Shown piece by piece: positions 5,297 to 43,357 of a stretch of 64,000 nt of DNA. This DNA is from Gluconobacter vitians (GTDB lineage Bacteria; Pseudomonadota; Alphaproteobacteria; Acetobacterales; Acetobacteraceae): positions 124,001-188,000 of the forward strand of contig NZ_JABCQG010000005.1 of assembly GCF_015244565.1 (NCBI RefSeq). The letters are read 5' to 3'. A program made the translations under genes and the position numbers. Position 1 is the first letter of the stretch, and each line of letters begins with the position of its first letter. The notes under the pieces are model-generated. The model saw only the letters and a program-made list of their open reading frames with translations. It did not search any database and had not been told where the DNA came from.

Positions 5297-5497
5297 TGTA
5301 TTTCTCCTTCAGAGAACGTTCAGGACAGCATTTGTCAGAAGTTGGAAACCGTCGCTGCCAAAGTCACGCTAACATAGCTGGCCCGAAGGTCCACCCTCGT
5401 CCGGCCACGGAACAGCACGCAGACATGGCAAAGCACCAACGCTGCTGCGAGGCAGAGCCTGAACGAAACATCTCGATTTTTCGGAGAAGGAGGAAAC

Positions 5498-5663: not shown

Positions 5664-6275
5664 TTAGGCCGCAAGAACCTTCAGCTCCCGCAGTTCCTCC
5701 AGCAGCGGCAACAGCGGCAGTCCCATCACGGCATCCTGCGCCCCCTCGACAGCCGAAAAAAGCTGTATCCCCGGGCCTTCAAGCCGATACGCTCCCACAC
5801 AGGACAGGATCGCCGACCCTTCCCGCTCCAGATAGGCCTTCAGGAAATCGTCAGAGAAATCCCGCATCGTCAGACGCGGCGACGCCAGATACTCCCAGAC
5901 TTTCTCGCCCCCCTTATAGAGAACGACCGCCGTGCGCAGGATATGCGTCCGCCCCCGCAGTCGGCGCAGATGCTCCGCCGCCTCAGCCACAGACCCCGGC
6001 TTGGCAAACGCCACCCCGTCCAGATCGAGGATCTGGTCCGCCGCAACCGTCAGTTCATCAAACCCCACATCCCGCGTCGCAAGATTGGCTTTCGCATCCG
6101 CCAGCGCGATGGCTGTTTGGGACAGCGTGTGCCCCTGCTCTTCACAGGATCGCCGTAACGCCTCCTCGTCGAGATCGACGGGGCGGGCCTGCACCGTAAG
6201 CCCCGCATTTTCGAGAAGCATCCGCCGGGCCGAAGAGCCGCTGGCAAGAATGAGGGAAGTACTGAAAGACATCAT
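5664..6275 (-). CDS. maf: Maf-family nucleotide pyrophosphatase (first copy)
   Basis: The 203-residue protein begins with the Maf motif LILASGSSARRMLL and continues with AADQILDLDG, the region carrying the conserved acidic and Gln residues, then YLEREGSAILSCVGAYRLEGPGIQL and the closing VMGLPLLPLLEEL. Maf proteins hydrolyse non-canonical or ordinary nucleoside triphosphates to monophosphates as house-cleaning enzymes. A second, more typical Maf lies at 42701-43357. This one stands divergent from hemE across the GTAC-rich region, an arrangement close to the origin neighbourhood of other alphaproteobacteria. Start is ATG 6275 or 6272. Confidence 0.88.
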   Translation of the reverse strand: MMSFSTSLILASGSSARRMLLENAGLTVQARPVDLDEEALRRSCEEQGHTLSQTAIALADAKANLATRDVGFDELTVAADQILDLDGVAFAKPGSVAEAAEHLRRLRGRTHILRTAVVLYKGGEKVWEYLASPRLTMRDFSDDFLKAYLEREGSAILSCVGAYRLEGPGIQLFSAVEGAQDAVMGLPLLPLLEELRELKVLAA

Positions 6276-6628
6276 GAAGTACGACTCCGTACTATCGACT
6301 GTTGGAACAGGGACGAGTACTGCGGATCACCCGGTGAAGAGATTGCGTCAGTACTGGGGTACATGGGGATAGTACCTGCCCTTGCGAAAGGAGTACCGAG
6401 TACCGTGGATTGTACGGTACACCAGCCGGAACTGGGGGTTGTACACAGGCTCTCTGTGGGCAATTCGGGATTGAATCAACGACTCCCTTGCAAAGTGCGG
6501 CTTCCGGAGTTGTACACAGTGTGAGTAAGACGGGGTACATTTTCAGAAAGCCGGGTACCCCGGTATCCACAGGGATCATCTTAACCTCCAGCATTTCTTT
6601 CTTTTTTCTTTTATGATTAGTGGGCGGC
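6276..6628. other. GTAC-rich intergenic region, candidate replication origin
   Basis: This 353-base gap between divergent maf and hemE contains 14 GTAC tetramers between 6279 and 6558 (about one expected by chance). It also holds three DnaA-box-like nonamers on the + strand, TTGTACACA at 6439 and 6510 and GTATCCACA at 6563, plus a weaker reverse one, TGTGGGCAA at 6455. A TTAACC (half of a CtrA-type site) is at 6581, and a T-rich pyrimidine tract at 6592-6612 could be an unwinding element. In Caulobacter and several other alphaproteobacteria the origin lies beside hemE. The sequence codes for nothing convincing. The GC skew does not change sign here, which argues against it. Confidence 0.5.
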
Positions 6629-7690
6629 ATGATTTCGGAAAACGCACCTTCCTCACCCTCGTCGAAACCGCTTCTGCGGGCCCTCCGTGGTGAAGCCGTC
6701 TGGCCGCCTCCGGTCTGGCTCATGCGTCAGGCAGGCCGATATCTCCCCGAATTCCGCGCCATGCGCGACAGGGCCGACTTCCTGACCCGGTGCATGACCC
6801 CGGACATGGCCACCGAGCTGACGATCCAGCCGATCCGCCGCTACGGCATGGACGGCGCCATCCTGTTTTCCGACATCCTGATCCTGCCCTGGGCCATGGG
6901 TCAGTCCCTTGAATTCATTGACGGACGCGGTCCCGTGCTCGGTGCCATCCGCTCTGAAGCCGACCTCGCCAGACTGGACCCGAAGCGCGTACAGGACGCC
7001 GTCGCACCCGTGCGCGAGACGTTGTCCCGCCTCACAAAAGAGCTTCCGGACGTCACGACACTTCTGGGCTTCGCAGGCAGCCCGTTTACGGTGTCCTGCT
7101 ACATGGTCGAGGGCGGTGGATCGCGGGATTTCGCCGAAACCCGCCGCATGATGCAGACCAACCCGGCCCTGTTCGATCGCCTGATCGACACCCTGACCTC
7201 GAGTACCGCCGAGATGCTCTGTGGCCAGATCGAAGCCGGTGCGGAAGCCGTGATGCTGTTCGATTCCTGGGCCGGAATCCTGCCCCCTTCCGCGTTCCGT
7301 CGCTACGTGATCGAGCCGACGCGCCAGATCGTCGAGTACATCCGCGCCCGTCACCCCAAAACCCCGATCATCGGTTTCCCGCGCCTTGGCGGCATCATGG
7401 TCCGCGAATATGCGCAGAAAACCGGCGTCAACACGCTCGCCCTCGACACCGTCGCCGACCCGGCCCAGATCTCCGAACTGGTCTCCGAAGTCCGCCCCGG
7501 CCTGACGCTTCAGGGCAACATGGATCCGATGATCCTGTTCTCCGGCGGCGAAACAATGGTGCGTGAAGCCCAGGCCATCCGGGACGCGATGCGCGGAAAA
7601 CCGCATGTTTTCAATCTCGGACACGGCGTCATGCAGCACACGCCACCTGAAAACGTGGCGGCCCTCGTCGAGGCGGTACGCTCGGTATGA
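6629..7690 (+). CDS. hemE: Uroporphyrinogen decarboxylase
   Basis: The 353-residue enzyme decarboxylates the four acetate side chains of uroporphyrinogen III to give coproporphyrinogen III in haem synthesis. It carries the family's RQAGRYLPEFR motif (arginine contacts to substrate carboxylates), the catalytic-type aspartate in GAILFSDIL, GSPFTVSCYMVEGG, and the C-terminal NLGHGVMQHTPPENV. ATG 6629 is preferred over GTG 6620; neither has a strong ribosome binding site. The stop overlaps the next gene by 4 bases (ATGA), so hemE, the HAD gene and hemJ form one operon. Confidence 0.96.
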   Translation: MISENAPSSPSSKPLLRALRGEAVWPPPVWLMRQAGRYLPEFRAMRDRADFLTRCMTPDMATELTIQPIRRYGMDGAILFSDILILPWAMGQSLEFIDGRGPVLGAIRSEADLARLDPKRVQDAVAPVRETLSRLTKELPDVTTLLGFAGSPFTVSCYMVEGGGSRDFAETRRMMQTNPALFDRLIDTLTSSTAEMLCGQIEAGAEAVMLFDSWAGILPPSAFRRYVIEPTRQIVEYIRARHPKTPIIGFPRLGGIMVREYAQKTGVNTLALDTVADPAQISELVSEVRPGLTLQGNMDPMILFSGGETMVREAQAIRDAMRGKPHVFNLGHGVMQHTPPENVAALVEAVRSV

Positions 7691-40031: not shown

Positions 40032-40496
40032 TTAGTTGCCCAGCGTAAAGGTCAGGCCCTGTGCACCGGCAGCCAGACGTGCACCTTGCGTCGAACTGTC
40101 GATCTTGATACGCACACCATTGCTGTTGGACAGGACAGCGCCTCCCAGACCCTTGTTCAGGGTGGCCTCACCTGCGAGGGAGCCGTAGCTGCCATCGAAA
40201 TCATGCAGGTTTTTCAGGTTGTAAACGGTTCCTTCGGCCTTGAGAGCCGAGTAACCGACAGCGGCAATGTTCCCGCCAGTCACCTTGAAATGGTAGGTGC
40301 GATGGCCATAGGTCAGGGTGCCGTCACCCCAGGTGTAACCGACGCCCACATCGGCAGAACGTGCGGACAGCGTAACGTGTCCGACCGGAGTGCCAAGCGT
40401 ATCTTCAGCACGGACGGCAGGGGCTGCGACAAGACCCGTTCCGAAAAGGACGGCTGCAAGGGCGACGCCATGGCGGCTGATATTGGAAGACATCAT
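40032..40496 (-). CDS. Small exported protein of unknown function
   Basis: The 154-residue protein has a signal peptide (1-30, ending VRA) and a mature part with glycine-rich beta-strand character: SADVGVGYTWGDGTLTYGHRTYHFKVTG, YNLKNLHDFDGSYGS and GVRIKIDSSTQGARL. Alternating polar/hydrophobic residues suggest a small beta-barrel or sandwich in the periplasm. The pattern looks conserved rather than random, but I cannot name the family with confidence. The next gene on this strand is the broken TonB-like gene, 124 bases upstream. Confidence 0.65.
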   Translation of the reverse strand: MMSSNISRHGVALAAVLFGTGLVAAPAVRAEDTLGTPVGHVTLSARSADVGVGYTWGDGTLTYGHRTYHFKVTGGNIAAVGYSALKAEGTVYNLKNLHDFDGSYGSLAGEATLNKGLGGAVLSNSNGVRIKIDSSTQGARLAAGAQGLTFTLGN

Positions 40497-40619
40497 GGAA
40501 CCTTCTGTCTGTTTTCATAGTCAGGCCCTGCGGGTGGAAACCCATGTGGCACTGACGATTGAAGAGACAACGTCCTCGCCCCCGGTTCGGATGCATTCAA
40601 AGGGACATTCATGTTCCTG

Positions 40620-41172
40620 CTATCGGTTACGGACCTTGGGGATGAGGAAGTTGAAGTGCATCCTGTAGTGTGAGCTGACAGGATGACCGTTCCTCATTGC
40701 AGGGAAATAGGACGCCTGAACCATATAGCCGCGTGCGGCCTGATTCAGTTCTGCATAATGCCCTTCCTGGACCAGACAGTCATGGGAATGGCCCTGCGCA
40801 TCAATCGTACAGGCCACCGTGACGTGATCTTCGATATGCCGGTCGATCATGGCCTGAGGATAACGGGGCATTCCTGAAACGGCGCGGTTGAGTCGGGCGG
40901 CACGGGTATTGTCCTGCTGGTCCGATATGGTGACAAACCTGCCCGGGCCGATGTTCAGATGGGCGATCTGCGGCACCAGAACAGCAACCTGAAACAGACA
41001 GATGCAGAGCAGGGGCAGCAAAAACCAGACTGGCGGCTGGCGACGTTGCCCGTCGGCATCCGTCTCGGGACAGGGCTGGAGTTCAGGCTGGGGGGTCTGT
41101 TCCGATTCCGTCCGGGGTGGAACGTCAGGGTCCTGATGCCTGAACCTGATGCCTGAAAAAGGGATCGTCCAT
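40620..41172 (-). pseudogene. TonB-like protein gene, frameshifted by a 13-bp duplication
   Basis: The reverse strand from ATG 41172 reads MDDPFFRHQ and then, because CCTGATGCCTGAA occurs twice in tandem at 41132-41157, shifts frame and stops after about 15 codons. If one copy is removed the frame runs to the stop at 40620 as a 179-residue protein: a Pro/Gln/Glu-rich cytoplasmic start, one membrane helix (WFLLPLLCICLFQVAVL), and a TonB C-terminal-type domain (RYPQAMIDRHIEDHVTVACTID, then YFPAMRNGHPVSSHYRMHFNF). As written only a TTG-initiated 133-residue piece with the helix and domain could be made. It may be a mutation, a phase-variable switch or a sequence error. Confidence 0.75.
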
Positions 41173-41348
41173 TTTCCGGTTCCCGATGTTTCCGGGCACG
41201 AGAGATGCGGCGTGTTTCAGGCAGCAATGACCTGCCCGGCGTCATCATGGAAGATCCGGCCATCAGAACGCCAGAAGGAATCGCGCCATCACAGGGCAGC
41301 CATTCGCGTAAAGCGCTGAACCAGAAAATAATTTTTTCAGGGGGAAAA

Positions 41349-41664: not shown

Positions 41665-42704
41665 GACAGGCTCCAGCTTGCAGGTGGGGCATTGGGATCA
41701 AGGACAAGATCGAGCGGCCGGGCGCGGCGGGATGTGAAATCCGCCAGGGCGTCGGGGTCGTTTTCCAGCGCCGTGATGAGTCCGATTGAGGCGGTCAGCG
41801 TCTGGCCGGGGCGGTTTTCGCGCAGGATCGTCCTGAGGATGGACAGTGCCTGCCCATGTGGGGAGGACAGGAGTTCATGCAAAGGGGGACGGCGGCGCGG
41901 GCGCGTCAGTTCCAGCAGGCCAGACGGTGTGGCGCCGAGGACATCCGGTTTCAGGGGATCGCCAGCCAAAGCCTCACGCAGGAAGGGAACCAGAGCCGGG
42001 CGTTTGCGTGTTTTTACGCCTGCCGGATCTACCAGAATCGTGCCCGAGAGGTTCCGCAGGCGGATCTGGCGCGCCAACTCGGGGAAAGCTGCGACATTGC
42101 CCTTGAAATCCGGAGTGCCAGCGCTGTCGAGATCGATGGCGACAAGGGCAGGGGTCGGGAAAATGCTGGCGGTCACGAGGCCCAGATCGGCCTCGGGGCT
42201 GCCGAGACTGTCGAAATCTGCTTCCAGCGCGCCATCGAACGCCTGCTGACAGCGCTGAAGGCGCTGGCGCAGGCGGACAGGCAGTTTTGCCGCAATGCCT
42301 GGATCGTCCACGAAAATCGGAGCATCCGGATACCGGTCCGCCAGTTCATCGAGCGGGGTCGGACCGCGTTCCAGCAGTTTCGGTGCGGATGGCGGCTCAG
42401 TGGGCATGTCAGCCCGGCGCAGGCGCAGGCCCTTGCCGTTCTGGGCGGCGCGGCTGACGCGGGCTGCGGTCAGGGCGCCTTCGATCAGGGCTTCACGGGT
42501 CGAGAGAAAGCCGCTCTGGCCGTCTTCGAGCAGGACGAACGCTCCCCCCAGAGCAGGAGCGGTTTTCTGGACGCGGACGACATGCCAGTCTTCCAGACCA
42601 TCCGGGCAGCCGGGACGCCAGATGGCGGCATCCAGCAATGTGTCATGGTCTGTGACGGCAATCCGCACTTCGCCCGGGGAACAGGCTGCGCGGATTTCGG
42701 TCAT
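41661..42704 (-). CDS. rng: Ribonuclease E/G-family protein
   Basis: The 347-residue protein is the short alphaproteobacterial form of the RNase E/G catalytic region. It shows AFVLLEDGQSGFLSTREAL near residue 55 (S1-like/sensor part), then ALVAIDLDSAG with the catalytic-type aspartate near residue 190, and GTILVDPAGVKTRKR near 225 with a second Asp. Long forms use two such Asp residues to bind Mg2+. There is no long C-terminal degradosome scaffold. It overlaps maf upstream and yacG downstream by 4 bases, so the operon is translated as a chain. The family's role is processing of rRNA and mRNA 5' ends; its exact targets here are not known. Confidence 0.82.
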   Translation of the reverse strand: MTEIRAACSPGEVRIAVTDHDTLLDAAIWRPGCPDGLEDWHVVRVQKTAPALGGAFVLLEDGQSGFLSTREALIEGALTAARVSRAAQNGKGLRLRRADMPTEPPSAPKLLERGPTPLDELADRYPDAPIFVDDPGIAAKLPVRLRQRLQRCQQAFDGALEADFDSLGSPEADLGLVTASIFPTPALVAIDLDSAGTPDFKGNVAAFPELARQIRLRNLSGTILVDPAGVKTRKRPALVPFLREALAGDPLKPDVLGATPSGLLELTRPRRRPPLHELLSSPHGQALSILRTILRENRPGQTLTASIGLITALENDPDALADFTSRRARPLDLVLDPNAPPASWSLS

Positions 42705-43357
42705 GCGATCCAGCCACCTGAGGGTTTGCCGACCGGCTGTCCGCGCAGGAGCTGGGCCGTTTCAAATAGGGGCAGTCCCACGACCGCGGAATAGCTGCCG
42801 CCGATCTGGCGGATATGGGCGGCGGCGGCGCCCTGGATAGCATAGCCGCCCGCCTTGCCCTGCCAGTCCCCCTGAGCGATCAGGGCGTCGATCTGCGCGT
42901 CCGTCAGGCGATGGAAAATGACGGAGGTTTCCACCAGTCGCTCGCAGGGCGTGCCTTGTGGCCAGCCCGCGCTTGGGCGCAGGACCACGGCCGTCAGGAC
43001 CTTGTGGCGGCGGCCGGAGAGCAGCTTCAGGCAGGCGCGGGCCGTCTTTTCGTCTTCGGCTTTCGGCAGGACGCGCCGGCCGACGGAGACCACCGTATCG
43101 GCCCCAAGGACGAGGGCTGCATCCGTGCGCTGCGCGGCTATGTGCTCCGCCTTCTGGCGGGCGAGGCGCTGCGCGAGCGGGCGCGGCAGTTCGCCGGGGC
43201 GCGGTTCTTCGTCGATATCGGCGCTGACGACGGCGTCGGGCACGATGCCGATCTGTTCCAGCAGACTCAGGCGGCGCGGGGAGGCGGAGGCCAGAACGAG
43301 CTTCGGACGGTCCGGAAGGCCGGATGACCCTTCTGCGGAAGACGGGGAGGAGGTCAT
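42701..43357 (-). CDS. maf: Maf-family nucleotide pyrophosphatase (second copy)
   Basis: The 218-residue protein has the canonical Maf motifs: LVLASASPRRLSLLEQIG near residue 20, LGADTVVSVGRRVLPKAED with the conserved Asp and Lys, and GDWQGKAGGYAIQGAAA near 170. It hydrolyses the pyrophosphate bond of nucleoside triphosphates, removing modified or mispaired types such as dTTP/UTP analogues. It stands between infA (13 bases) and rng (4-base overlap). It is nearer to the E. coli YhdE type than the first copy at 5664-6275, which lacks the exact ADTVV pattern. Confidence 0.92.
   Translation of the reverse strand: MTSSPSSAEGSSGLPDRPKLVLASASPRRLSLLEQIGIVPDAVVSADIDEEPRPGELPRPLAQRLARQKAEHIAAQRTDAALVLGADTVVSVGRRVLPKAEDEKTARACLKLLSGRRHKVLTAVVLRPSAGWPQGTPCERLVETSVIFHRLTDAQIDALIAQGDWQGKAGGYAIQGAAAAHIRQIGGSYSAVVGLPLFETAQLLRGQPVGKPSGGWIA

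Follow-up and report, generated by a model that had tools for sequence, protein, structure and literature searches.

Between maf and hemE in Gluconobacter vitians (contig NZ_JABCQG010000005.1) lies a stretch of DNA that is crowded with the tetranucleotide GTAC. Is this stretch the replication origin of the chromosome, and what are the GTAC sites for? The window, i.e. the whole stretch of DNA analysed, has a length of 64,000 nucleotides; its genome (G000) was compared with relatives at genus and family level. The reading we favour, with a probability of about 0.68, is that the maf-hemE element is the chromosomal origin of acetic acid bacteria, that its GTAC sites are functional and that an orphan DNA methyltransferase is the best candidate for their reader.

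The GTAC array and its conservation

The preliminary description had counted 14 GTAC sites in 280 bases of the maf-hemE gap (6279–6558). This count was reproduced, and a 15th site was found barely within the 5' end of maf (Table 1). The DnaA-box-like sequences (TTGTACACA twice, GTATCCACA once), the weaker reverse box (TTGCCCACA), the TTAACC and the T-rich tract near hemE were also present as described. The GC content of this tract was the minimum among all 40-base steps from 6240 to 6699. A search for known RNAs in the gap gave no match at E 0.1; only a tRNA was found upstream.

In positions 6251–6600, 15 GTAC were observed, whereas 2000 dinucleotide-preserving shuffles averaged 2.3 and never exceeded 8, and all 15 TAC trinucleotides of this stretch were part of a GTAC. 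Window-wide, GTAC was the sole tetramer to reach 15 per 300 bp (runner-up: CGCC, 14). Three GTAC with gaps of ≤30 bases occurred at 14 places across the 93 contigs of the draft genome, and 11 of the 14 belonged to the maf-hemE cluster. The same pattern read backwards, which served as a control, occurred 803 times. Based on the shuffles and the genome-wide count, the cluster is real and unique in this genome.

Table 1. Coordinates of the features discussed (positions in the window unless a contig is given)
Feature	Position	Strand	Remarks
Conserved origin-like element: GTAC array and DnaA-box-like sites	6259..6580	+	covers maf 5' end and maf-hemE gap
Fifteen GTAC sites	6259..6558	.	starts 6259, 6279, 6289, 6317, 6351, 6359, 6372, 6393, 6400, 6412, 6417, 6441, 6512, 6535, 6555
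Most conserved right half, profile R1 (150 positions)	6434..6580	+	98.7 bits, E 7e-30, filters off
DnaA-box-like TTGTACACA, GTAC inside	6439..6447	+	GTAC kept in 32/32 aligned sequences
DnaA-box-like TTGTACACA, GTAC inside	6510..6518	+	GTAC kept in 31/32 aligned sequences
DnaA-box-like GTATCCACA	6563..6571	+	one mismatch vs TTATCCACA
Weaker reverse DnaA-box-like TTGCCCACA	6455..6463	-	
AT/T-rich tract adjoining hemE, candidate unwinding element	6580..6619	+	GC 0.28
maf (flank)	5664..6275	-	Pfam PF02545, E 1.8e-39
hemE, uroporphyrinogen decarboxylase (flank)	6620..7690	+	PF01208, E 1e-118 on 6626-7690; ORF start GTG 6620 or ATG 6629
Orphan PF01555 TSPPYN methyltransferase, behind mltA	G000:C1:211254-212063 (L243)		

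The element is non-coding and comprises ~320 bp. Its conservation in relatives, proposed as a check in the preliminary description, is evident: all 26 genomes of the genus, including that of the window, have 10–16 GTAC in the 600 bp upstream of hemE. Among 80 named hemE loci (the best 80 of 589 relatives encoded in the species collection), 38 had at least six GTAC upstream of hemE. These belong to Gluconobacter, Acetobacter, Komagataeibacter, Gluconacetobacter, Novacetimonas, Acidomonas, Commensalibacter, Endobacter and some MAGs. Six loci (Bombella, Parasaccharibacter, Saccharibacter and one MAG) had 0–3, and the remaining 36, more distant loci had 0–5.

As a detector in 299 sampled genomes of the family, the triple-GTAC pattern was unspecific (277 of 299 matched) and was replaced by profile R1, which was built on 24 sequences of the right half of the element. 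With stricter filters, R1 matched in 88 of the 299 genomes and in 35 of 102 genera. The match was strong (E 2.4e-17 or better) in 73 of the 88 and single in 87; one Saccharibacter genome (G126) has a second, weak one. Four GTAC have a near-fixed spacing (71, 23 and 20 bp in the window) and were intact in 32, 31, 32 and 32 of 32 aligned sequences. The element is retained in Commensalibacter despite surrounding DNA of 27–30% GC.

Conservation of the GTAC bases exceeds that of their surroundings, in line with the functional, lineage-specific motif suggested earlier. Between the window genome and each of G004, G005, G009 and G010, all 60 GTAC bases were identical; the values were 0.89–0.91 for other element bases and 0.75–0.79 for 4-fold sites of hemE. 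In the same order, the values were 58/60, 0.93 and 0.72 for G021, 59/60, 0.73 and 0.35 for G025, 54/60, 0.75 and 0.36 for G007, and 45/60, 0.57 and 0.25 for G022. The GTAC sites are thus under selection, and their functional weight is well supported. The flanks contained ≤0.25 bit of information at 34 lineage-specific GTAC columns (A at −1 in 55%) and were slightly more informative at nine core positions. Judging from these alignments, the bare palindromic tetramer is the feature common to the sites.

Strand asymmetry and relocation of the element

The GC skew agrees with an origin at the element in G015, G022, G006, G007, G008, G025, G325, G323, G328 and, for a short stretch, G126. An origin role of the element is well supported in several relatives. 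Within 400 kb around hemE, the distance between the minimum of the cumulative skew and the cluster start was 0.27 kb in G015 and 1.7 kb in G022; both assemblies consist of two contigs. A sign change at the element was found in G006, G007, G008 and G025. In Commensalibacter melissae, sampled in 20 pieces of 20 kb, one skew switch fell between 1.92 Mb and 0 and the other one between 0.9 and 1.0 Mb; hemE and the element are located at 1.997 Mb of 2.013. In six other genera, 5-kb skew samples beside the element rose from left to right in all six cases, clearly only in G051, G095 and G039. At 20 and 40 kb, the skew was too weak for a judgement in G072, G173 and G238 and mixed in G051.

Nearly all parS-like sites (≤2 mismatches) found in seven genomes were on the contig of the element and within about 121 kb of it (39 of 40). 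The counts of AIMS words, which indicate leading-strand polarity, were small and mixed (plus/minus to the right of the element: 6/17 in G000, 2/18 in G005, 10/8 in G014, 4/4 in G007 and 10/0 in G022).

The dnaA gene lies elsewhere. The distance was measured in five of 15 genomes, in which dnaA and the element share one contig, and amounted to 42% of the contig in G022 (dnaA locus L319), 45% in G015 (L321), 49% in G026 (L310), 46% in G072 (L322) and 37% in G051 (L317). In two Acetobacter genome papers, oriC was placed beside dnaA, in one case with balanced replichores from there (PMC3751514) and in the other at the skew maximum, with the predicted oriC and dif 51 kb apart (PMC13209655). The oriC of these papers thus adjoins dnaA, whereas the element is far from dnaA in the five genomes above, which are other ones.

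Element and hemE can be separated. In three Bombella-type genomes (G325, G323 and G328), 21–24 kb separate the element from hemE, and hemE and maf are still near each other. The skew minimum, determined within 119–140 kb, was 0.6, 0.4 and 0.2 kb from the element start, respectively, and not at hemE. The gene next to the relocated element in G325 and G323 has an ortholog in the window genome, ~40 kb to the left of the window.

The intact copy of Saccharibacter sp. 17.LH.SD (G126) is located at 42.2–42.5 kb (L339) and contains 13 GTAC; the skew minimum of the 16 kb around this copy was at 41,988, i.e. 0.2 kb away. A decayed copy is found at hemE (L040:2795-2897), 21 kb from the intact one, with an R1 match of E 2e-6 and one GTAC nearby. 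The skew in its surroundings was mixed, and negative at 60–66 kb. The abandoned copy has lost its GTAC sites and retained a box-like sequence. Relic and intact copy together look like a relocation caught midway.

As the skew minimum follows the element in G325, G323, G328 and G126, the origin signal has moved with the element. The origin beside hemE, as first described, holds for the position of the element in all 26 genus genomes, but adjacency to hemE is inessential, with the skew minimum following the element in the Bombella-type genomes.

DnaA-like sites and an orphan methyltransferase

Relaxed DnaA-like sites (≤2 mismatches) numbered 2–8 in the 450 bp upstream of hemE versus 0.5–2.0 in letter shuffles. 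All 20 loci exceeded the expectation, one of them (L081) barely. Strict boxes (≤1 mismatch to TTATCCACA) were few (0–3 per locus in the same number of loci). The preliminary description had suggested a shifted box consensus. This was not supported: DnaA domain IV is nearly unchanged, and the 34 lineage-specific GTAC have almost no shared flank. A DnaA with altered specificity was considered as the cause of the GTAC sites and rejected, since domain IV is near-identical across 14 Acetobacteraceae genomes and the Azospirillum outgroup.

CtrA sites have the motif TTAA-N7-TTAA. Full sites of this form were found in none of the 20 loci. A single TTAACC half site was present in nine loci, including the window, and an IHF-like site in one. 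Of 13 loci drawn from the 36 beyond the GTAC-rich group, 11 gave a weak R1 match (E 3e-7 to 0.08) directly upstream of hemE with filters off. Because of these matches at distant hemE loci, the element is best regarded as an old hemE-side origin that gained GTAC sites; it is probably homologous to the hemE-side origin of alphaproteobacteria.

Besides the CcrM-like enzyme, the element-bearing genomes encode another member of PF01555, a methyltransferase of ~280 aa that carries the motif TSPPYN. It scored 72.5 bits with the NCBIfam CcrM model versus 627.7 bits for the genome's own CcrM. At five loci (flanks of ~1.4 kb each), its neighbours included MltA in three, among them the window genome, as well as Smr, Tim44, OmpA and cytochrome c peroxidase. 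No endonuclease gene was found within these short flanks. In G238, G269, G148, G233 and G291, the copies of the methyltransferase gene have one internal stop each.

The methyltransferase was found in 130 of the 299 family genomes: in all 73 genomes with a strong element, in 10 of the 15 with a weak R1 match (absent from the other five) and in 47 without an R1 match. Its association with GTAC was also found beyond the GTAC-rich group, in 36 hemE loci (L049 not used) of which many are MAGs that may be incomplete. Here, the 350 bp upstream of hemE contained a mean of 2.0 GTAC in the eight loci with the enzyme versus 0.43 in the 28 without. At least one GTAC was present in 8/8 and 9/28 loci, respectively. 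Outside this stretch, the density per 350 bp was 0.23 with and 0.33 without the enzyme. Among 16 palindromic tetramers tested in the 36 loci, GTAC alone differed by presence of the enzyme (p 1.6e-4; the next value was 0.11). An independent-pairs test of methyltransferase versus GTAC on the hemE tree, with enzyme presence assumed for L049, had too few supported pairs for significance to be within reach.

We put the link of the methyltransferase to GTAC forward as a specific hypothesis, in which the enzyme would methylate GTAC. The origin would be composed of DnaA-box-like sites in both orientations, the AT/T-rich tract by hemE and 10–16 GTAC, and DnaA is predicted to bind there. GTAC would be a functional site. 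A factor specific to the lineage would recognise the bare 4-bp palindrome, and the vertically inherited orphan methyltransferase (PF01555, TSPPYN) is the best candidate for it. In the two TTGTACACA boxes, methylation of GTAC would overlap the DnaA site. By analogy to Dam and GATC at the E. coli oriC, it would distinguish the new from the old origin and thus may time the refiring of DnaA. The GTAC sites appear to serve a control that has yet to be described.

The most elaborate version of this mechanism is tentative, and we rate its chances below even. It would be a methylation clock at the origin of acetic acid bacteria that evolved independently of Dam/SeqA, with a GTAC array overlapping and flanking the DnaA boxes and a dedicated orphan methyltransferase, older than the array, as its writer. 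The array would have been built up round the ancestral hemE origin, would move with the origin and would be lost from an abandoned copy.

Competing readings and known origins

The skew in the window's own group disagrees with the element. In G000, G014, G004 and G005 (partly in G009), it is negative for ~22 kb right of the element, down to −0.20. At 33–39 kb, it is also negative in G000 and G014 and near zero in G004, G005 and G009. Collinear orthologous DNA in G006, G007, G008, G025 and G022 has mostly positive skew. The switch is located about 22–35 kb right of the element in G000, G014, G004 and G005 (12–24 kb in G009), which corresponds to around 28–41 kb in the window (earlier in G009). 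Either the site of initiation has shifted within this group, leaving the element with another job, or the skew misleads. Because of this disagreement, we make the claim with more confidence for the family than for the window genome, for which we infer active initiation at the element. Regarding the origin claim of the preliminary description, the conserved element and the skew minimum in several relatives support it, while the switch well to the right in the own group makes it uncertain there.

Some structural observations were made in the same region. The reversal in this G. oxydans-like group (window ~6600–28000, up to 39000 in G000 and G014) appears as if the direction of replication had flipped. 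In G025, window positions 5494–39090, including the element, are inverted, with breakpoints near a tRNA-Ala (5498) and left of a tRNA-Phe (41349). At 40476–41346, adjoining the tRNA-Phe, G014 has about 11 kb extra, probably an island. A second Maf-family gene is located at 42701–43357 beside an RNase E/G gene.

A shift of the active origin in the window's own clade by about 22–35 kb to the right, with the element kept for DnaA titration, reactivation or control of hemE/maf, would agree with the reversed skew at ~6.6–28 kb in the four genomes (also at 33–39 kb in G000 and G014) and with the relocation of the element in relatives. We nevertheless consider it unlikely. A second element is absent from the window (beyond 6434..6580, the best R1 match has E 2), there are at most two relaxed DnaA boxes per 500 bp at 27–43 kb (39245, 39510), and no plasmid-type replication gene was found among twenty ORFs scanned at 29.5–55 kb, three of them without a Pfam match. 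Moreover, the element is constrained in this clade as well. A cluster of transcription-factor sites for hemE and/or maf without a role in replication is a very improbable reading. It would fit the position beside hemE in 26 of 26 genus genomes and in 38 of the 80 named loci (best 80 of 589), but in the three Bombella-type genomes the element lies away from hemE and maf, by another gene and accompanied by the skew minimum, and the Saccharibacter copy left at hemE has one GTAC.

For chance, low complexity or shared descent without function, no supporting evidence was found; this reading is refuted and has a negligible probability: none of the 2000 shuffles exceeded eight GTAC, the element persists in the AT-rich surroundings (27–30% GC) of Commensalibacter, and the conservation of GTAC exceeds that of 4-fold sites. 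A rather doubtful but more specific alternative accepts the element as the origin and has GTAC bound by a sequence-specific protein, such as a small dimer that represses or activates initiation, instead of being methylated. In its favour, the palindromic GTAC is kept at 60/60 bases in four close pairs while the flanks drift, and flank retention is somewhat higher at the nine core sites than at the lineage-specific ones. The 34 lineage-specific positions, however, have almost no flank information, which is common among methyltransferase sites but unusual among those of binding proteins. A candidate protein did not turn up either (the families sought were PF01555 and the DnaA C-terminal domain).

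If the reading of the element as an origin with methylated GTAC holds, an industrially used bacterial group would have a precise and testable origin, and GTAC would join GATC as the second tetramer with an array that is integral to an origin. Natural gains, moves and losses of the array make its function readable. With the conserved orphan methyltransferase named, its role is directly testable.

In a literature search (subscription papers outside its scope), no title among the matches listed concerned a GTAC array in the origin of acetic acid bacteria. GTAC methylation is described for Helicobacter typhlonius, not at an origin, in PMC4705304. Origins linked to hemE are known from alphaproteobacteria, namely Caulobacter (Cori), Rickettsia and Wolbachia (PMC1914354). 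Like the Caulobacter-type origin, the element adjoins hemE and has an AT-rich tract and DnaA-like sites. The partner gene of the Caulobacter-type origin is COG1806 (DUF299), whereas the other flank of the window's element is maf. Further differences are the 10–16 GTAC, the lack of full CtrA sites (20/20 loci) and the separation from hemE in Bombella-type genomes.

The E. coli oriC contains a GATC array that is served by Dam and SeqA. The element resembles it in the dense array of a palindromic tetramer in and between DnaA-like sites, in the origin length of ~300 bp and in its candidate writer, an apparently solo methyltransferase. The word differs (GATC versus GTAC), and the candidate methyltransferase is of the PF01555 TSPPYN type.

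CcrM targets GANTC, which occurred 0–5 times in the 450 bp upstream of hemE (20 loci). As in CcrM/GANTC systems, a CcrM-like enzyme was the top PF01555 match in 16 of 16 genomes examined. Unlike in these systems, the word at the element is GTAC, and the candidate methyltransferase is a separate protein.
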